From: a virus | Direction: 5' to 3' (one strand) | Length of the DNA: 34,039 nucleotides | IMG/VR virus record: IMGVR_UViG_3300035661_000209 | Span: 1 to 34,039 of that record | Shown: positions 2,031-13,869 of the stretch, in pieces | Layout: each line of letters begins with the position of its first letter | How positions within the stretch are numbered: position 1 is the stretch's first letter | Notes under the pieces: model-generated | Databases searched by the model: none | What the model was told of the DNA's origin: nothing | What the model saw: only the letters and a program-made list of their open reading frames with translations | Made by a program: the position numbers and the translations under genes

Positions 2031-3182
2031 ATGTCAGCACCATCGAAAATAAACGCAATGAAACAACAAGTACAAAACGATTTTTCAAATAATAAACCTA
2101 CGCAAATTCAAACACAATTGAGTCAACTTCCTCAAAAAAAAGAAGTTACTTTATTAGACGCTTTGCAAGATTCTGTCATTAAACAATTAGGTCAAAGATG
2201 GAATTCACAAGACATAAGTTATGCTACAAATTTAATACAAACTGCATACGTTAAAGCAAAATCAAACACAAAATTAATGAATGCAATCAATACAAACAGA
2301 GAATCATTTTTAAATTGCATTAGTAAAGCTATTAATTTGAAACTTGGTGGAGCAGCAAGAGATCTTTTTTATTTAATTCCGTATGAAATTAAAGGTCAAT
2401 TAAGCGTTCAGTTTCAAATATCGTACATGGGGATAATGGAACTCGCTTATCGTTCAGGGCTTGCAAAATTGTTTGTAAGAGAAGTTTATGAATGCGATAC
2501 ATTTGTATGTAAATTTGGATTTGACCAAGTTTTAGAACATGAACCAAATTTTGAAGAGAGACCAAATTCAAAAATTATTAGGTATTATGCTGTTGTAAAA
2601 TCAAAAGATTGCGATCCTATCTGCGAAGTAATGAGTGTAAACGAGATTAATGATCACATGAAAAAATATAGTAAATCTTATAATCGTTCTGATTCTGCAT
2701 GGATTACAGATTTTGATGCAATGGCAAAGAAAACCGTTCTTTTGAAAGCTCTTAAATGGGTTAAAAAATCACCTGAGTTGGAAGAACAATTTTATAATGA
2801 TTTACCTGATAATTATAATCAAAATGAAGAACCAAAACTGATTAATGATAATTTTGAAAATGTAATAGATGTAGAAGAAAATAATATAAAAGAAAAAAAA
2901 ACTTTAATAAATGACACATCAAAAGAATTTAGTTCTAATTTTAATGACTCAATTAAAAATCAACTTACTACAATTATTAACGATTTAACTAGTAAAGTAA
3001 AAATGGATGAGCCTACAAAAAAGAACTTTAAAACAGATATTTTTATTGAAACTAAAAATCAGTTTATAAATTTAAAATTAGAATCCCTCATTGATCTTGA
3101 TATTAAAAAGATTATGAATGATTTAATACAGAATAAGTACGACTTTTGGAACGATACAGAGAAAGAAACAGAGGTACTCTAA
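2031..3182 (+). CDS. recT: RecT-family single-strand annealing protein
   Basis: A 383-residue protein with the RecT domain across roughly residues 60-270. Diagnostic segments are AINLKLGGAARDLFYLIPY, SYMGIMELAYRSG, VREVYECDTF and FDAMAKKTVLLKALKW. By family it coats single strands made by the partner exonuclease and pairs homologous DNA, serving replication, repair and mosaic exchange. The gene follows the YqaJ nuclease by two bases, with AAGGA upstream of ATG 2031. The C-terminal ~110 residues are charged and poorly conserved in appearance, longer than in many RecT proteins, and could carry protein-interaction contacts such as with SSB (inference). The stop overlaps the next ATG by one base (TAATG). 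Confidence 0.92.
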   Translation: MSAPSKINAMKQQVQNDFSNNKPTQIQTQLSQLPQKKEVTLLDALQDSVIKQLGQRWNSQDISYATNLIQTAYVKAKSNTKLMNAINTNRESFLNCISKAINLKLGGAARDLFYLIPYEIKGQLSVQFQISYMGIMELAYRSGLAKLFVREVYECDTFVCKFGFDQVLEHEPNFEERPNSKIIRYYAVVKSKDCDPICEVMSVNEINDHMKKYSKSYNRSDSAWITDFDAMAKKTVLLKALKWVKKSPELEEQFYNDLPDNYNQNEEPKLINDNFENVIDVEENNIKEKKTLINDTSKEFSSNFNDSIKNQLTTIINDLTSKVKMDEPTKKNFKTDIFIETKNQFINLKLESLIDLDIKKIMNDLIQNKYDFWNDTEKETEVL

Positions 3183-3460
3183 TGAGTAAAACTAAAGACA
3201 ACGTTCCTGATTGGCTATTACATATTCCCCCTGGTCTTTATAGCACTCTAGACTTAATTAAAATAACGAATCACACAAGGTTTAACATATGGGCAAGAAT
3301 GAACGCTTTAGGTGTTAATGTTGAAAAAGTGAAACAAAAAGGATCGGGGCATTATGCTGTTAATATGTACAACTGGAAGGGCGCAAAGTTTTATATACAA
3401 AAACAGTTTGATGATAAAATAAATAAAATGGAGGGAAATAATGGCAAAGAAAAAATCTAA
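3182..3460 (+). CDS. 92-aa hypothetical protein, possible winged helix
   Basis: ATG at 3182 shares a base with the recT stop, so this start is chosen over an upstream in-frame codon inside recT. The middle reads STLDLIKITNHTRFNIWARM, then NALGV, a basic stretch (KVKQKGSG) and an aromatic beta-like end (HYAVNMYNWKGAKFYI). The helix-turn-helix-like spacing with a following hairpin suggests a winged-helix DNA-binding fold, but I match no named family. Lying between RecT and an HNH nuclease, it plausibly belongs to DNA metabolism. The 3' end overlaps the HNH gene by 20 nt. Confidence 0.7.
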   Translation: MSKTKDNVPDWLLHIPPGLYSTLDLIKITNHTRFNIWARMNALGVNVEKVKQKGSGHYAVNMYNWKGAKFYIQKQFDDKINKMEGNNGKEKI

Positions 3461-3968
3461 CTACTACACTCGAATGTTGAAAATTTGTCGACAGCAATGG
3501 ACCAGATCTAATGTAGAACGCAAAGAATGTTTAAACAAAGCAAAATTACCTGATTTAAAACCTTCAAAATGGATGTGCGCTCATTGTTTTGATTTTTATG
3601 CACTTTCAGAAATAGATTGTGATCACATCAACCCTATAGAAAACTCTACACCTCAAACTAAAGAAGAGTTTATCTATTGCTTTGAGCGTCTTCATTGTCC
3701 TAGCGAATGTTTACAGATTCTTTGTAAAACTTGTCACAAGATTAAAACAAAACATGAAAAAACACTGAATGAAAGTGCATGGTATCGAAGTGAAATTAAG
3801 AATCTTCTTGAAAAAATGAACATGGACGATATTGAACTTGAAGACCTTGAGTACAAACAACTTCAAAGACTTTGTAATATTATTCTAAAAATAGGTGAAT
3901 CTGTGGAAGAGAAGAAAAAACAAACTTGGAGAAAAAAACTTTTAGAATTTATGAAAGGATTGAGATGA
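3441..3968 (+). CDS. HNH endonuclease
   Basis: A 175-residue protein with a Cys-type HNH (beta-beta-alpha metal) domain: CAHC (C46, C49), DCDHINP (D61, H62), then LQILCKTCHKIKTKHE (C95, C98, H99). The four Cys bind structural zinc; the DH pair and the last His form the nicking/cleaving metal site. The classical Asn before LQ is a Cys here (C90), a variation I recall in phage HNH proteins of this type. ATG 3441 has GGAGGG at 3431-3436 and overlaps the previous gene. A helical, basic C-terminal half may contact DNA. It is grouped with the recombination genes rather than beside the terminase, so a role in recombination intermediates or host DNA is likelier than packaging; homing activity cannot be excluded. 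Confidence 0.88.
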   Translation: MAKKKSNYYTRMLKICRQQWTRSNVERKECLNKAKLPDLKPSKWMCAHCFDFYALSEIDCDHINPIENSTPQTKEEFIYCFERLHCPSECLQILCKTCHKIKTKHEKTLNESAWYRSEIKNLLEKMNMDDIELEDLEYKQLQRLCNIILKIGESVEEKKKQTWRKKLLEFMKGLR

Positions 3969-4186
3969 AAATATATAAAGTCTTCAAAAAAGATGAACCA
4001 TTTAATTTTCGCTATTTTAAAATATTTTGGACATGGAAATATGTTAAAATATTTCTTAAAAATAACCTAGATTTTGACTGGAAAAAAGATGATTTTTTTT
4101 TGGATAAAGATGATCCTTTAAGAAAAACTATTGAAAATTACAAATTTATTAAAAAGGGGGAAAGATATGACAGATTTATACATTGA
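3965..4186 (+). CDS. 73-aa hypothetical protein
   Basis: ATG at 3965 overlaps the HNH stop (ATGA) and has AAAGGA at 3954-3959, so it is preferred to an in-frame ATG at 3926 within the HNH gene. The sequence is rich in Phe, Trp, Lys and Asp (FRYFKIFWTWKYVKIFLK) and strongly amphipathic. No family is recognised. The 3' end runs 20 nt into the best start of the SPFH gene. Its position between a nuclease and a membrane protein gives no firm clue to its role. Confidence 0.6.
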   Translation: MKIYKVFKKDEPFNFRYFKIFWTWKYVKIFLKNNLDFDWKKDDFFLDKDDPLRKTIENYKFIKKGERYDRFIH

Positions 4187-5012
4187 GGATAAAGGAATTA
4201 AAATGAAACAGAAACATTTGATAATTATCGCTATTTTAGTATTTTGTGTTCTATTTTTTACGTTCACATCATGCAGTCGAATAGACAGTGGAGAAGTAGG
4301 AATTGTCACTACTTTTGGAAAACCTTCCGAGGAAATATTAAATCCAGGACTGCACTTTTTGAATCCTTTTTCCTCAGTAACTACTATTGATTTGAAAATA
4401 AGAACTGTTGTTGCAGAAAGTGAAGCTGCATCTTCAGATTTACAAAGAGTTCATACAGCTATCACGCTTAATTACAAAGTTGATTACGCCAATGCAGTAA
4501 AACTTTTTACAAAAGTTAGTAAAGATGAGAAGTATATTGAATCAGCTATCGTTACTCCTTTTGTAAATGAATCTTTCAAAGCCGTAGTGGCGCACTTTAC
4601 TGCTGAAAATCTTGTTAATAAGAGAGATGAAGTAAGTAGAGAAATTCAGGACCTTCTAAATAGTAAGCTTAATAAAACTTATCTTGATGCTATTTCTATT
4701 TCTGTAACCAACTTTAAATTTTCTGATTCTTTTAATGCAGCAATAGAAGGGAAAGTTACTGCACAGCAAGAAATTCTTACGACTCAGAATAAGCTTTTAA
4801 AACAGCGTGTTGATAATGAAATCGCAATTACAAAGGCTCAAACAGAATCTCAAGCTATTGTGTTGCGTGCCGAGGCTGATGCTAAAGCTCTTAATCTTAA
4901 GAAGATGGCTCTGACTCCAGAGCTTATCCAACTAAATGCTATTGAAAAATGGAATGGAGTTTTGCCGGTTTATTCTAGTAATAGTTTACCATTTATCAAG
5001 GAGATTAAATGA
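4167..5012 (+). CDS. SPFH/Band 7 (prohibitin-like) membrane protein
   Basis: A 281-residue protein with an N-terminal membrane anchor (HLIIIAILVFCVLFFTFTSC, residues 17-36) followed by an SPFH core: SGEVGIVTTFGKPSEEILNP, GLHFLNPFSSVTTID, a helical ALNYKV-type middle and a C-terminal coiled coil rich in Ala and Glu (RAEADAKALNLKKMAL). SPFH proteins oligomerise into membrane rings; bacterial HflK/HflC bind and restrain the FtsH protease, and prohibitins do the same in mitochondria. The SPFH domain should face the periplasm. ATG 4167 has a run of five Gs six bases upstream; ATG 4203 (AAAGGA site, 269 aa) is an alternative start. The cysteine after the anchor gives an imperfect lipobox. The 3' end overlaps the next gene by 4 nt. 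Confidence 0.88.
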   Translation: MTDLYIEDKGIKMKQKHLIIIAILVFCVLFFTFTSCSRIDSGEVGIVTTFGKPSEEILNPGLHFLNPFSSVTTIDLKIRTVVAESEAASSDLQRVHTAITLNYKVDYANAVKLFTKVSKDEKYIESAIVTPFVNESFKAVVAHFTAENLVNKRDEVSREIQDLLNSKLNKTYLDAISISVTNFKFSDSFNAAIEGKVTAQQEILTTQNKLLKQRVDNEIAITKAQTESQAIVLRAEADAKALNLKKMALTPELIQLNAIEKWNGVLPVYSSNSLPFIKEIK

Positions 5013-5308
5013 AACCCCGTTATGAAAAAGAATGTATCAAACTTGGAGAGATGGCAAATGAGGCTCTTAATCTGCCGAAGAATGTGGATAAGCCTAAGTT
5101 TGAGACTATTAATATAATTAAAATATATAATTTATTAGAAGAAGAAATAGAAGAATTAAAATATGAATTTTTTCATCATGGACAAATTAATACTCAAAAA
5201 GATATTCATGAAATTGACTTTAAACGTGCCAAAGAAGAGCTTTCCGATTGTGCGGCGGTATTAACAGGACTATTAGCATGGATTAATAAACAAGAAAAAA
5301 TTAAATGA
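5009..5308 (+). CDS. MazG-like all-alpha NTP pyrophosphohydrolase
   Basis: A 99-residue helical protein with the metal-binding signature of the all-alpha NTP-PPase (MazG/HisE/dUTPase) superfamily: LLEEEIEELKYEF at about residues 42-54 supplies ExxE, and AKEELSDCAAVLTGL supplies E77-x2-D80. The family hydrolyses nucleoside triphosphates to monophosphates; phage members are proposed to clean the nucleotide pool or lower (p)ppGpp. The gene overlaps the SPFH stop (ATGA) and has AAGGAG upstream. One MazG domain is normal for phage proteins. The exact substrate cannot be read from the sequence. Confidence 0.8.
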   Translation: MKPRYEKECIKLGEMANEALNLPKNVDKPKFETINIIKIYNLLEEEIEELKYEFFHHGQINTQKDIHEIDFKRAKEELSDCAAVLTGLLAWINKQEKIK

Positions 5309-5606: not shown

Positions 5607-5819
5607 ATGAAAAAAATAATACCAGGATTTAGATTGTTTAGATGTGACACTTGTAATAACGAATGGAAATACCCTTGCAGAGATTGCCACAGCTCTTCTG
5701 GTGATAGTTGTAGATGTGGTGATTCTGTATACCCTTTGGAAGGTGAAGAACACCCAGAATGGCCAGTAGATGTGTCAGGAAATATAATTAATGAGGAACA
5801 ATATGAAAACAAAAATTAA
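5607..5819 (+). CDS. 70-aa Cys-rich zinc-ribbon protein
   Basis: The start at 5607 is chosen over 5595 because GGAGAG lies at 5595-5600 at normal spacing. Visible metal ligands are C13-x2-C16 (CDTC), C24-x2-C27 with H28 (CRDCH) and C35-x-C37 (CRC). The segment with WKYPCRDCHSSSGDSCRCG resembles small zinc-ribbon proteins common in phage genomes whose function is unknown. It probably binds one or two zinc ions. The C-terminus is acidic. Its last 17 bases overlap the next micro-gene. Confidence 0.72.
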   Translation: MKKIIPGFRLFRCDTCNNEWKYPCRDCHSSSGDSCRCGDSVYPLEGEEHPEWPVDVSGNIINEEQYENKN

Positions 5820-5913
5820 CTTCGCTCTAAACATAGGCGCAATAGTTCTTTGTGCTGGATTGTGTGTAATCCTTAGGGCCCACGAGTGGAAAAATAAAAG
5901 GAGTAAATCATGA
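5803..5913 (+). CDS. 36-aa single-pass membrane peptide
   Basis: ATG at 5803 follows GAGGA at 5793-5797, and the frame ends at TGA 5911-5913. One hydrophobic segment spans residues 7-24 (FALNIGAIVLCAGLCVIL), followed by a basic tail (RAHEWKNKRSKS). It starts inside the zinc-ribbon gene and its stop overlaps the next ATG, so it sits in a coupled chain of micro-genes leading to the lysozyme. A role in lysis (holin, antiholin or regulator) is suggested by position only. Confidence 0.6.
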   Translation: MKTKINFALNIGAIVLCAGLCVILRAHEWKNKRSKS

Positions 5914-6038
5914 TTGAAACTATACTTCACGCTACTTTGTATTCTACGATAGCCACTATAGTTATCGGGCTATTTATGTATTTATATTTCCTATGGATTA
6001 AAAGAAAAATTAAAAATTTATTTAGAAAGAATAAGTAA
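5910..6038 (+). CDS. 42-aa membrane peptide, candidate holin
   Basis: ATG at 5910 overlaps the previous stop (ATGA), with AAGGAG at 5898-5903. Residues 8-29 form one long hydrophobic, Thr/Ile/Tyr-rich segment (TIATIVIGLFMYLYFLW), then a very basic tail (KRKIKNLFRKNK). One membrane span with a charged end, two genes before an endolysin, fits a small holin or antiholin, but no sequence family is recognised. The next start follows the stop with no gap. Confidence 0.6.
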   Translation: MIETILHATLYSTIATIVIGLFMYLYFLWIKRKIKNLFRKNK

Positions 6039-6143
6039 ATGAATATCATACAACTATTTGATAACCACCCGTCAATAATTCTAACAATAATTATATGTTT
6101 CACAGTAGTTAACTGTGTGGTATTTTGGAGATGCCGTAAATGA
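6039..6143 (+). CDS. 34-aa membrane peptide directly before lysozyme
   Basis: ATG at 6039 abuts the previous stop, and the frame ends at TGA 6141-6143, which overlaps the lysozyme start by 4 nt. A hydrophobic stretch covers residues 12-29 (SIILTIIICFTVVNCVVF), then WRCRK. The perfect coupling on both sides argues that it is translated. It is the nearest partner of the endolysin and could be a holin-like or pinholin-like peptide, though it is shorter than typical holins and no family match is claimed. Confidence 0.55.
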   Translation: MNIIQLFDNHPSIILTIIICFTVVNCVVFWRCRK

Positions 6144-6909: not shown

Positions 6910-7566
6910 ATGACAAATGTAAGTCTTTCAAGAAATAGACTAAAAACTCTGTTAAAAACAACAAATTACAAAAAAGAGAATACATGCGACTTAGATATTT
7001 TTAAACAGAAAAAATCAATATCCCTGAGAGAAGGACCTTGGGCCAGATTTAAAGTTTTTATCAGGACTTTGTTTTTAACTGATTATCATACGAGTAATTA
7101 TTTTCAAAAAACAATTGATAAACAAAAAAAAATACTTGCAGTGTTAGATGAGCTTGAAGACTTCAAAGCCCTCGCAATGACTAGCTCTTCAGTTAATGAA
7201 GAGTTATTAAATAATAAATGTTATTCTTCATTTAATGAAGAGTTATTAAATAATAAATGTTATGTAATAAATAGCTTTTTTGAAGATTCTCCTTTTTGCT
7301 TTAATTACACATTCCATCGGCATGGAGGGAACGCAGTACTTAAAATCTTTTTAGTAGATAAACTATCAGGGTACATCGTGAAAGACTCTGAACAAAATAT
7401 TATCTTCATGAATCATTGTTCAAGCTCATTAACTTATAGTAATTATTTGCATATTAAATACTTGGGAAACGGTATTTATCCAAGACGCATAAATTATAAA
7501 ACTATATCAAATGAGAATGGGATCGTTAAAAAAGTCTATAGATTTACAGGTAGTATAAAGGAGTAG
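6910..7566 (+). CDS. hypothetical protein, 218 aa, member of local paralog family
   Basis: ATG at 6910 follows AAAAGAGG. The family is not recognised. Residues 1-90 are basic and helical and match the interrupted copy upstream. Residues 93-118 contain two tandem copies of a 13-residue unit (S-S-V/F-NEELLNNKCY). The C-terminal ~100 residues look beta-rich (LKIFLVDKLSGYIVKDSEQN). There is no membrane segment. It is flanked by degenerate relatives, so this is the only intact copy in a decaying or diversifying locus just behind the endolysin. The role is unknown. Confidence 0.7.
   Translation: MTNVSLSRNRLKTLLKTTNYKKENTCDLDIFKQKKSISLREGPWARFKVFIRTLFLTDYHTSNYFQKTIDKQKKILAVLDELEDFKALAMTSSSVNEELLNNKCYSSFNEELLNNKCYVINSFFEDSPFCFNYTFHRHGGNAVLKIFLVDKLSGYIVKDSEQNIIFMNHCSSSLTYSNYLHIKYLGNGIYPRRINYKTISNENGIVKKVYRFTGSIKE
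7186..7263. repeat. 39-bp direct tandem duplication (2 copies)
   Basis: The blocks 7186-7224 and 7225-7263 are the same 39-bp unit with a single G/T difference (TCTTCAGTTAATG versus TCTTCATTTAATG). The length is a multiple of three, so the host frame is kept and 13 residues are duplicated. Near identity implies a recent event or ongoing slippage. Confidence 0.95.
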
Positions 7567-10431: not shown

Positions 10432-13400
10432 TTATCCAATTTGTGTAACTTTTACAAAACTTCCTGTAGGCCCAGAAGGTGAATCCAGTACTATGTACTG
10501 ACCTGACGCAATCTCATATATATTAATAAATACTTGTGTAGTACCAGATGTCACAGTAATAATTGATGTAGCCGGGTTTGAAACGGTCCAACTAGAAGCC
10601 CAGCCCGCCGCGCCCGTCGTTTGAACAAATCCTTTTTTATTTGATGAACCTATAAGAGTACCAGACCCATTTGTGATCTGGAATTTAGCCCAGCCCGTGG
10701 AACCATCCGCCGCATATAGATTGGCTTCAACATAAAATATACCTATTCCTAGAGTAAAAGAGAACGCTAAATTTGCTGGTCCTGTAATATTAGATTGATT
10801 GTTTTTAACATAGCCATAATTAGAAAATGCGACATTTTTGGTTAAACCAAAATAAAGTAAATTTTGAGATGCAATGGAAATAAATGCAAAAGACGGGAAT
10901 ATTCCAGGATAAGCCGAGCTTTGCAATGCAACTGAGCCATTTATGTTTAAAGAATTTTGTACATTAAATCCGTATACTGTTGCATTTGTTGTACTAGCAT
11001 TTACTCCTAGTCCCCCGTAAGAGGTTCCTATAATACCAGCCTGCCAAGTTCCTGTAGCAATTGTACCTACGCTTGTAAGTGAACTTGTCACGACTGTAGA
11101 ATTTAGTGTTGTTCCACTCAAAGTACCCGCAGGCGCAATAACTGCATTTGTGCTCGCCGCTGTGAGTAGGCCTTTCCCGTTCACTGTGATGCTCGGGATT
11201 GCCGTGCTACTGCCAAAGCTACCAACGTTTGCATTTACTGTCGCTAATGTTAAAACTCCAGTATTGTTTATTGTTGCATCACCCGATAGAGCTACACCAG
11301 AAGCTACATTCATAGAATTACCAACCAACAAAAATGCTGATGTTAAAACTTTTGTAAGTCCATTCGTAATCTGAGCTATTGTATAATCGCCTGTCGTTGC
11401 AACTACAGCTCCAGTACGACCAAATACGCTAACAATAGTTGTTTGATCAATTAACCAATTTGATGAAGTTTGACCTGGAACATTAATAAGTGCCGTAACA
11501 GAATCATTCGGATATACTACTGTACTTCCTAATGTACCTTGTACTGTAATATACCAATAATCTCCGGCTCTTATTGCTCCAGCCGTACCTGATCCACCTG
11601 TTGCAGGAAATAAATTTGTGGACGCATTATATCCACCTCGAAATGAAACTCCGTTTAGGACCGCATTGTTAATAGCTGTTGTTACAGCTTGCGAGGTTGG
11701 TAAAGTTAAATTCGTGTTTGTTAAAGTTGTTTCTACTGAAATACCAGAATCAATAACTTGACCACTCCCATTAACATAAACAATGTTATTTGCCGTTGGT
11801 GAACTTATCAATGGTTGTACAGAAACAGTATTACTTACTACTCCATTAATTATGCTTGTTAAAGTTACGCCTGTTAGTCCAAGTGCATTACTGTTTATGA
11901 TATTCACTGGACTTGATGCAGTCCCGCCATTAACAGCTACAGTCATACTATTAACTGAGCTATTAAGAGTACCAGTTAATCCAGTTAATGAACCACCATT
12001 AATAGCTGGTAAAGTAGTAACTAGACTAGGTACTCCACTACCATTGGTTGCAAGTACTGCATTATTTATTGGTGCTACATATCCTGTCGTCGCACTCGCA
12101 GACTGATACGGGATACTGTTTACCGTGGTTTCGGCGAGATTTGTTGAAGTCGTTGCGGTTGTCGCATTTCCTGTCGTTGATTGATTGAGAATTGGGAAAT
12201 CTGCCGCAACAGCTATCGTTAGTGCCCCGGTTCCTGTCGTTGACTTTAGAATACCCGTGCCCAACGCGCTTGTACCTGCGCTGTAGTCCGTGCCTGAGAC
12301 TGCCGCGCTTAGCGCGGTTCCGTCTCCTTTTACTAGTCCTGTCACTGTCGTTGATAAAGTAATAGCTGGCGTCGTTGACGCTGTCGCTACAGTTCCGGCT
12401 AATCCGTTGGCACTTACTACGCTTACGCTAGTGACGCCTGATGCCGCTAGGATATTGCTTAATGCTAAATTTAAGGCTGCACTTGTAGTCGTTGTCGGAT
12501 CTACGACTTGAGTTGCACCTGTATCACCGCTAGTCAATATGCCTACACTTGTTAAAGAAGAACTAACAACGTTTGACGCTAATGTTGTACCTGTGAGAGT
12601 TCCAGATGGCGCAATTACTACGCTGCTTCCTGCTGCTGTAAGTAAACCTTTTCCATTTACTGTGAAACTCGGGATAGATGTTGAGGAACCAAATGAACCA
12701 ACATTGCTATTAACTGTTGCTAGAGTTAATGCGCTTGCACCTGGCCCGGTTGCTGTTGCGTCACCCGTAAGTGAAGTAATTGCTGCCCCTGATGTTCCGC
12801 TGACTTGAGCTTGTAAATTTTGAAATGCTGTTAAAATTGAATCTGTGGCTACGATAGGTGTGTTTGTTCCTGCTACATAACCAGTCAATAATTTTCCTGT
12901 GACTGTCGTATTAGAAATAGCGGTTACTAACGATCCTACTGTATTTGTCACATCTCCGGTTAACGCTGGAAATTGAGCCGCTTGTAGAACTCCACTTGCA
13001 TAATTAGTTAGATCTATTGCTGTTGCATTCCATATACCAGTTATTAAAGTACCAACGCTAGTCAATGAAGATGAAACTACATTAGATGCTAATGTAGTTC
13101 CTGTGAGAGTTCCAGCCGGTGCAATGACCACGCTTGAACTTGCTGCCGTTATTAATCCTTTTCCGTTCACTGTAAATGAAGGAATTGAGGTAGATGACCC
13201 GAAAGATCCAACGGTCGCGTTCACAGTTGCAAGTGTTGTTAAGCCTGTGTTGCTTATGCCAATGTCGCCCGATAAAGATACGCCTGTGGCAATTCCAGAA
13301 CCATTACCTACGAAAATATTTGCCGATGGCAGTACATTGCTCAAACCATTCGTTATTTGAGATATATTATAATCTCCAGATACTGCAACAATGTTACCAA

Positions 13401-13869
13401 ATCTACCGAATACGCTGGAAACTCCGGCCGCATTTATAAACCAATTTGTTGAAATTTGGCCCGGGTCTTGTATTAACGCTGTTAATGTATCACCCACTAA
13501 AACTAATATTGATCCGACAGTCCCGGCGACTGTAATAACCCAATAGTCGCCCGCACCTATCTCGCCGCCCGGTAATGACCCCCCCGTTGAAGGATAAGCA
13601 CCGCTGGACGCGTCATAACCGCCGCGAAATGATTTTCCGCTTACAATTGCCGCTGCAATTGCTTGCGTTACAAAAAATGATGTTGTTGCGTCAGTGTGCG
13701 ACGGTATGCTTGTATAAAGGTCATTAATGATAACTACACCGGAAGTCGTGGTAGTAGAATTATTAACACTCAATACTCCACTATTTATAACAAGAGGTAA
13801 TACAACGGAGTTAATAGTAGCATTTCCTCCTCCTCCAACTCGCCAATCTGGATAATCTGTTCCGCTCAT
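10432..13869 (-). CDS. large repetitive tail fiber protein, 1145 aa
   Basis: A low-complexity, Ser/Thr/Gly/Val-rich beta protein typical of phage tail fibers, which bind the cell surface at the tip. It has two ~198-residue modules (about residues 80-278 and 742-939), each with SFRGGY(D/N)AS, AGDYW, SVFGR then GDY(N/T)I, QITNGL and TVNGKGL(I/L)TAA. A third copy of the last part lies at 383-448. The middle (about 450-600) carries the widespread fiber motif DYSAGTSALGTGIL, and its DNA is unusually GC-rich. The last ~170 residues are unique and aromatic, the likely receptor-binding or chaperone-dependent tip. GGGAG precedes ATG 13869. It lies next to last in the baseplate-fiber gene order, followed only by small membrane proteins. 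Confidence 0.85.
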   Translation of the reverse strand: MSGTDYPDWRVGGGGNATINSVVLPLVINSGVLSVNNSTTTTSGVVIINDLYTSIPSHTDATTSFFVTQAIAAAIVSGKSFRGGYDASSGAYPSTGGSLPGGEIGAGDYWVITVAGTVGSILVLVGDTLTALIQDPGQISTNWFINAAGVSSVFGRFGNIVAVSGDYNISQITNGLSNVLPSANIFVGNGSGIATGVSLSGDIGISNTGLTTLATVNATVGSFGSSTSIPSFTVNGKGLITAASSSVVIAPAGTLTGTTLASNVVSSSLTSVGTLITGIWNATAIDLTNYASGVLQAAQFPALTGDVTNTVGSLVTAISNTTVTGKLLTGYVAGTNTPIVATDSILTAFQNLQAQVSGTSGAAITSLTGDATATGPGASALTLATVNSNVGSFGSSTSIPSFTVNGKGLLTAAGSSVVIAPSGTLTGTTLASNVVSSSLTSVGILTSGDTGATQVVDPTTTTSAALNLALSNILAASGVTSVSVVSANGLAGTVATASTTPAITLSTTVTGLVKGDGTALSAAVSGTDYSAGTSALGTGILKSTTGTGALTIAVAADFPILNQSTTGNATTATTSTNLAETTVNSIPYQSASATTGYVAPINNAVLATNGSGVPSLVTTLPAINGGSLTGLTGTLNSSVNSMTVAVNGGTASSPVNIINSNALGLTGVTLTSIINGVVSNTVSVQPLISSPTANNIVYVNGSGQVIDSGISVETTLTNTNLTLPTSQAVTTAINNAVLNGVSFRGGYNASTNLFPATGGSGTAGAIRAGDYWYITVQGTLGSTVVYPNDSVTALINVPGQTSSNWLIDQTTIVSVFGRTGAVVATTGDYTIAQITNGLTKVLTSAFLLVGNSMNVASGVALSGDATINNTGVLTLATVNANVGSFGSSTAIPSITVNGKGLLTAASTNAVIAPAGTLSGTTLNSTVVTSSLTSVGTIATGTWQAGIIGTSYGGLGVNASTTNATVYGFNVQNSLNINGSVALQSSAYPGIFPSFAFISIASQNLLYFGLTKNVAFSNYGYVKNNQSNITGPANLAFSFTLGIGIFYVEANLYAADGSTGWAKFQITNGSGTLIGSSNKKGFVQTTGAAGWASSWTVSNPATSIITVTSGTTQVFINIYEIASGQYIVLDSPSGPTGSFVKVTQIG
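11053..11646 (-). repeat. fiber module copy 2
   Basis: Encodes fiber residues about 742-939, which repeat residues about 80-278 (encoded at 13036-13632). Both copies contain the SFRGGY, VFGR/GDY, QITNGL and GSFGSST blocks in the same order. A shorter third copy of the last block is at 12526-12723. Confidence 0.8.
12526..12723 (-). repeat. fiber module, short third copy
   Basis: Encodes fiber residues about 383-448, with VGSFGSSTSIPSFTVNGKGL nearly identical to residues 220-239 and followed by the same TLTGTTLASNVVSSSLTSVG stretch. It stands alone without the VFGR/GDY part that precedes the other two copies. Confidence 0.8.
13036..13632 (-). repeat. fiber module copy 1
   Basis: Encodes fiber residues about 80-278, the first full module. 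It parallels the copy at 11053-11646 block by block. Such shared blocks are natural sites for recombination that lengthens, shortens or swaps fiber segments. Confidence 0.8.

Follow-up and report, generated by a model that had tools for sequence, protein, structure and literature searches.

A PHROG_200-type phage prohibitin carried as accessory cargo in a variable locus of a phi1422-like dwarf myovirus

The phage sequence analyzed here (34,039 nucleotides; IMG/VR record IMGVR_UViG_3300035661_000209, hereafter the window) belongs to a phi1422-like dwarf myovirus and encodes an SPFH protein that is, to judge from sequence comparison and a predicted structure, a phage prohibitin, with PHB1/PHB2 nearest to it in sequence and fold. 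The gene is accessory cargo in the early/recombination region, and it adds one member to an already known phage family of unsolved function. Phage SPFH proteins were observed in three builds: anchored by a membrane helix, lipoprotein-type with a two-helix partner (mostly PHROG_1130), and headless. A full SPFH protein, a headless SPFH protein, and a one-helix peptide share one variable locus within a single dwarf-myovirus lineage. The best explanation, to which we assign a probability of about 0.42, is that the window carries, as accessory cargo, a PHROG_200 prohibitin forming a periplasm-facing ring that organizes the membrane and perhaps restrains proteolysis.

The SPFH gene runs from ATG to stop over 281 codons without internal stops. 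The initial annotation had called it an SPFH/prohibitin-like gene, with coordinates that proved exact, and the call was borne out by Band_7 (PF01145) over residues 38–212 (E = 1.8e-33; 116.5 bits against a cut-off of 23.6) and by a full-length match to the PHROG_200 profile (residues 11–272; E = 2e-55). The membrane anchor, SPFH core, and C-terminal helix that it described are likewise all present in the sequence and in an AlphaFold2 monomer (mean pLDDT of 86.6) built from a 28-row alignment of viral and prophage rows. The model has helices at residues 15–33, 187–248 (62 residues), and 251–261 and a disordered tail, and its matches to solved SPFH proteins confirmed the fold. An alternative start at 4203 would give a protein of 269 residues with a signal-peptide-like N-terminus, and a Shine-Dalgarno-like stretch can be read 5' of each start (4167 and 4203). 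Within the C-terminal motif, W, G, and P are invariant in two alignments (A2 and A4), and the whole of LNAIEKWNG is invariant in another (A1). PADLOC defense models gave no match to the SPFH protein, and a promoter scan returned hits no more numerous than in shuffles.

Table 1. Coordinates of the SPFH gene, its parts, and the surrounding variable locus in the window
Feature	Position	Strand	Basis or remark
92-aa ORF, left edge of variable locus	3182..3460	+	conserved in siblings G002 and G003
HNH endonuclease, same variable locus	3441..3968	+	phrog_1985, E = 2.6e-7
Small soluble 76-aa ORF overlapping the first SPFH start	3956..4186	+	no membrane helix by inspection
SPFH/prohibitin-like protein	4167..5012	+	PF01145, PHROG_200, AlphaFold2 model
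Anchor: K-rich start, hydrophobic helix, lipobox-like FTSC	4203..4274	+	Cys36 = 4272–4274; Cys24 from start 4203
SPFH/Band_7 domain	4278..4802	+	E = 7.7e-36
Long C-terminal helix, residues 187–248	4725..4910	+	AlphaFold2 model
Prohibitin-type C-terminus LNAIEKWNGxLP...PFI	4911..5009	+	motif conservation
Small protein, probably MazG-like NTP pyrophosphohydrolase	5009..5308	+	G002 homologue, motif

Among solved structures searched by sequence (phmmer), prohibitins matched best (E = 2e-17 to 6e-15), followed by HflC (7e-6) and QmcA (1e-4). Fold comparison of the model gave Z scores of about 20 over 208–251 residues for PHB1/PHB2 (PDB 8rrh, 9o9z, and 9urz), 15.9 for HflC, and 14.1 for QmcA. Identity to PHB1/PHB2 is about 25%, and those proteins are mitochondrial, whereas that of the window is phage-borne. 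The curated hflC model TIGR01932 scored 36.5 bits on the SPFH protein against a cut-off of 134.4, so that the protein did not pass the TIGR01932/NF008259 threshold for HflC/HflK. In a 70-row tree, inferred by a quick search with SH-aLRT as its sole measure of support and weak in the deep order of the phage clades, a branch with SH-aLRT support of 100 separated all phage prohibitins from HflC, HflK, and QmcA, and forcing the window protein to join HflC cost 33 log-likelihood units (p-AU = 0.0006). The curated cut-off, the tree, and the AU test rule out membership in HflK/HflC. The specific HflK/HflC affinity advanced in the initial annotation is thus abandoned, human prohibitins being closer in both sequence and fold; of the phylogeny against HflC and QmcA that it had proposed, the SPFH/prohibitin-like identity survives and the kinship to HflC does not. 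What the protein does share with HflC/HflK is the SPFH superfamily, an N-terminal anchor, and a domain predicted to be directed toward the periplasm; besides the low score and the rejected grouping, it differs in that no hflK gene accompanies it in the window.

Relatives of the SPFH protein were found by tblastn in 730 of 50,697 phage records and in 641 plasmid records. The phage family to which it belongs, PHROG_200, is labeled 'lipoprotein' or prohibitin and includes proteins of Burkholderia phage CSP3, Faecalibacterium phage Toutatis, and Acinetobacter phage nACB2. They have the same layout of anchor, SPFH domain, helix, and tail and are likewise accessory genes of the early region, but the window protein is only 26–39% identical to the annotated phage matches listed. 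Its closest relative among viral contigs (L193) is 46% identical. No relatives of a Subdoligranulum plasmid protein were found in the viral contigs. Reports of SPFH genes in phages go back to at least 2006 (PMC1524935), and a role in adsorption or entry has been suggested for such proteins (PMC13239085); no functional test of any phage SPFH protein was found in the literature searched. A separate observation concerns genes with a pilin-like N-terminus (MKKGFTLIELLVTIAIIG), which lie directly 3' of the SPFH gene in two contigs (L225:6713-6955 and L265:6765-6893); in the T4-like phage 44RR, a pilin-motif ORF is numbered next to the SPFH ORF (PMC1524935).

By analogy with solved SPFH complexes, the protein would be inserted with its N-terminus inside and with its SPFH domain and helix on the periplasmic face, and many copies would assemble into a closed ring or dome, within which an area of the inner membrane would be set apart. 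The anchor would be either a retained membrane helix or a segment that is cleaved and lipidated at Cys36. FtsH-type proteases are known clients of prohibitins and HflKC. In the last and least certain step, the ring may organize or stabilize the membrane during infection and keep host membrane quality control off the enclosed proteins, to the benefit of the phage.

The nature of the anchor bears on the alternative that survives best. The hydrophobic segment ends FTFTSC-S, and this agrees with the PROSITE PS00013-type pattern when translation begins at 4203 (Cys24) and not when it begins at 4167 (Cys36), under a rule that combines the PS00013 lipobox with a Cys at position 15–35 and K or R within the first seven residues. 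Signal peptidase II might cut at Cys36 and leave a lipid-anchored periplasmic ring, probably at the outer membrane, that would change either the way in which later phages adsorb or deliver their DNA (superinfection exclusion) or the stability of the envelope. We regard this envelope lipoprotein as possible, though clearly less probable than the inner-membrane ring. A lipobox-type site occurs in 21 of 80 independent phage SPFH groups, and the same rule is satisfied by 2 of 54 bacterial HflK/HflC/QmcA-like control rows. Asp at +2, the inner-membrane retention signal of E. coli, is missing in 19 of the 21 lipobox groups. An HflK/C-like SPFH protein of a Pasteurella multocida prophage, reported to occur in outer-membrane vesicles and to act via TLR1/2, offers a precedent (PMC9872710). 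The window, however, has Phe at –3, which is unusual in a lipobox, the Cys is replaced by Ile in its sister L193, and the pattern holds from the second start alone.

Across the SPFH tree, the lipobox state flips at least eight times. A uniformly lipoprotein family, as one alignment implied (A1; 13 of 13 rows), did not survive wider sampling, in which the nearest relatives of the window protein are mostly anchored by a membrane helix. Lipobox-bearing relatives would lose their membrane helix, so that a single, constant way of contacting the membrane throughout the family is hard to maintain.

One clade of 13 groups (support of 92) is lipobox-bearing throughout, with a small two-helix membrane gene directly 5' of the SPFH gene at an overlap of ≤17 nt or a gap of ≤25 nt in the printed examples. 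This clade spans a crAss-like phage, a Lak phage, a 110-kb E. coli plasmid, and Pseudomonas phages. PHROG_1130 was matched by 7 of the 10 two-helix genes scanned (E < 0.05; six at < 0.003), and 3 of 59 non-lipobox groups have a two-helix gene upstream. In this lipoprotein clade, the two-helix gene and the SPFH gene have the look of a two-gene module. The association of lipobox and two-helix gene was strong over the 80 groups (Fisher p = 4e-8) and not significant, with few origins, in a pair test controlled for relatedness; it is therefore a trait of one clade rather than a repeated co-gain. QmcA-YbbJ and stomatin/NfeD pairs resemble this arrangement in joining an SPFH protein to a small membrane partner, but the window differs from them: PHROG_1130 is absent from it even at E = 10, the upstream ORF at 3956–4186 is not two-helix, no NfeD-type neighbor was recognized, and the QmcA fold matched at Z 14. 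The two-helix genes (L185:4821-5021, L188:2811-3014, L189:2724-2975, L021:4942-5124, L033:5792-6007, L009:5783-5992, and others) carry a loop motif, PxLxSxxS.

The portal protein of the window is 53% identical to that of Bdellovibrio phage phi1422, its closest isolate, which is one of the dwarf myoviruses and lytic (PMC3391216). Because phi1422 is the closest isolate by portal sequence, the host is plausibly a relative of Bdellovibrio, a predatory bacterium. Band_7 was found in none of 30 portal relatives (about 19 of them larger than 35 kb, many being incomplete records), and the SPFH gene is therefore accessory; a more distant relative (L194) does have an SPFH gene. Another idea is that the protein mimics HflKC and acts on a lysogeny regulator whose stability depends on FtsH, as that of lambda cII does, by shifting that stability. 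A lysogeny role has been suggested for phage SPFH proteins, and the mimicry has been put forward for other phages (PMC8540360, PMC4936722). Regulation of FtsH by SPFH proteins is real, but relatives of the window protein are carried by lytic phages, the lytic way of life is also that of phi1422 (PMC3391216), the window protein is unrelated to HflC/HflK within SPFH, and no integrase or repressor was recognized among the genes scanned, which were part of the ORFs of an incomplete record. We consider such mimicry unlikely.

Comparison with sibling phages shows how the SPFH gene sits in its locus. The order in the window is HNH nuclease, 76-aa ORF, SPFH gene, and MazG-like gene. In G002 (portal 71% identical), the locus contains a phrog_93-family endonuclease, a 49-aa one-helix membrane ORF, and a homologue of the MazG-like gene, and the SPFH gene is absent. 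In G003 (portal 66% identical), it contains a 141-aa protein made of a membrane helix and an SPFH-type coiled coil and tail, with the SPFH domain absent. When window positions 3182–5308 are set against L350:9650-10760, the HNH gene, 76-aa ORF, and SPFH gene take the place of a phrog_93-type nuclease and a 49-aa membrane ORF, and the edges of the exchanged segment are conserved. The SPFH stop and the MazG-like start overlap by 4 nt (ATGA). Since the 49-aa membrane ORF of G002 overlaps the MazG-like start there by 4 nt as well, the overlap is not specific to SPFH. The direct coupling to a MazG-like gene that was first noted is thus real as an overlap but is not peculiar to the SPFH gene, and the joint host control drawn from it is not supported, given that G002 has no SPFH gene and that BLASTP recurrence of any neighbor family reaches at most 5 of 83 neighborhoods.

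The MazG-like label itself is plausible. No Pfam or PHROG profile matched the gene at threshold, and a single-sequence model was all-helical with low confidence (pLDDT of 54). The pattern sought, ExxE-x(12-28)-ExxD, represents the metal-binding spacing of MazG-type pyrophosphohydrolases, and E46xxE49...E77xxD80 is kept in both the window protein and its 44% identical G002 homologue. The label rests on this conserved motif and on the weak match of the G002 homologue to phrog_173, an NTP-pyrophosphohydrolase family (E = 0.008). That sibling gene is the only relative found; phages and viral contigs yielded none. A comparison did not support homology to the 'pyrophosphatase' gp04 of phi1422, and no dedicated partner gene for the window SPFH protein is conserved.

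The neighborhoods of 82 SPFH groups and the window (83 in all) were compared within four genes, and by BLASTP no neighbor family recurred in more than five of them. Recognized families among 131 direct neighbors in relatives were, besides PHROG_1130, mostly those of DNA and nucleotide metabolism (for instance thymidylate synthase, primase, and exonuclease), a setting more in keeping with an accessory gene of the early region than with a structural gene or one devoted to lysis. A role in timing lysis, through holin assembly or through the envelope, is accordingly doubtful: lysis genes do not recur over the 83 neighborhoods, where DNA metabolism dominates, although the region 1.1 kb downstream of the SPFH gene has three very short membrane ORFs together with a T4-type lysozyme gene, the Kayvirus SPFH gene comes after holin-endolysin, and that of Acinetobacter phage nACB2 is near rIIB. 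A virion or injected protein is highly improbable, since the gene is in the early region, distant from the structural module and on the opposite strand, and the recognized families found most often beside its relatives do not include structural ones; in its favor, gp131 of Erwinia jumbo phage RisingSun is an SPFH protein in a virion mass-spectrometry list (PMC6034870).

The headless protein of G003 (L354:8047-8472) matches phrog_11227, labeled 'protease' (E = 7e-51), and its C-terminal part matches PHROG_200 (E = 7e-5). Headless SPFH proteins were found by tblastn in 84 phage records, with best matches 56–62% identical over about 100 residues; relatives occur in Salmonella phage SPN1S, Synechococcus phage S-PM2, and Klebsiella jumbo phages, and the tally includes Halorubrum viruses. 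The headless form is thus strongly conserved among phages that are not related to one another. The headless genes inspected are stand-alone and encode 128–145 aa. Strong matches in 150 Pseudomonadota genomes fill open frames of 152–161 aa, and the headless form is therefore a stable small family and not a broken gene. It is conceivable, though rather unlikely, that the three builds are interchangeable and that SPFH rings of the host are either joined or poisoned by headless proteins and by phage rings, host membrane scaffolds then being a regular phage target; the co-assembly and the targeting are speculation.

The prohibitin placement, together with sorting by anchor and partner, splits the FtsH idea into narrower questions: whether the protein is lipidated, whether it has a two-helix partner, and whether it has its SPFH domain or is headless. 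Should phages indeed take over membrane scaffolds, the finding would be relevant to how membrane domains of the host limit or help infection.

Elsewhere in the window, three chained tiny ORFs with hydrophobic stretches (5803–5913, 5910–6038, and 6039–6143; 5803–6143 overall) lie directly 5' of the T4-type lysozyme gene at 6140 and are candidate holin/spanin-type genes. A 39-bp in-frame tandem repeat at 7186–7263 (two copies; 97% matches) falls within ORF 6910–7566, and short tandem repeats with 6- and 18-bp units occupy positions 1–131 at the left end of the record. Positions 10432–13869 encode a repetitive 1145-aa protein, probably tail-fibre-like, of which only 7–13% matches related phages, in short stretches.
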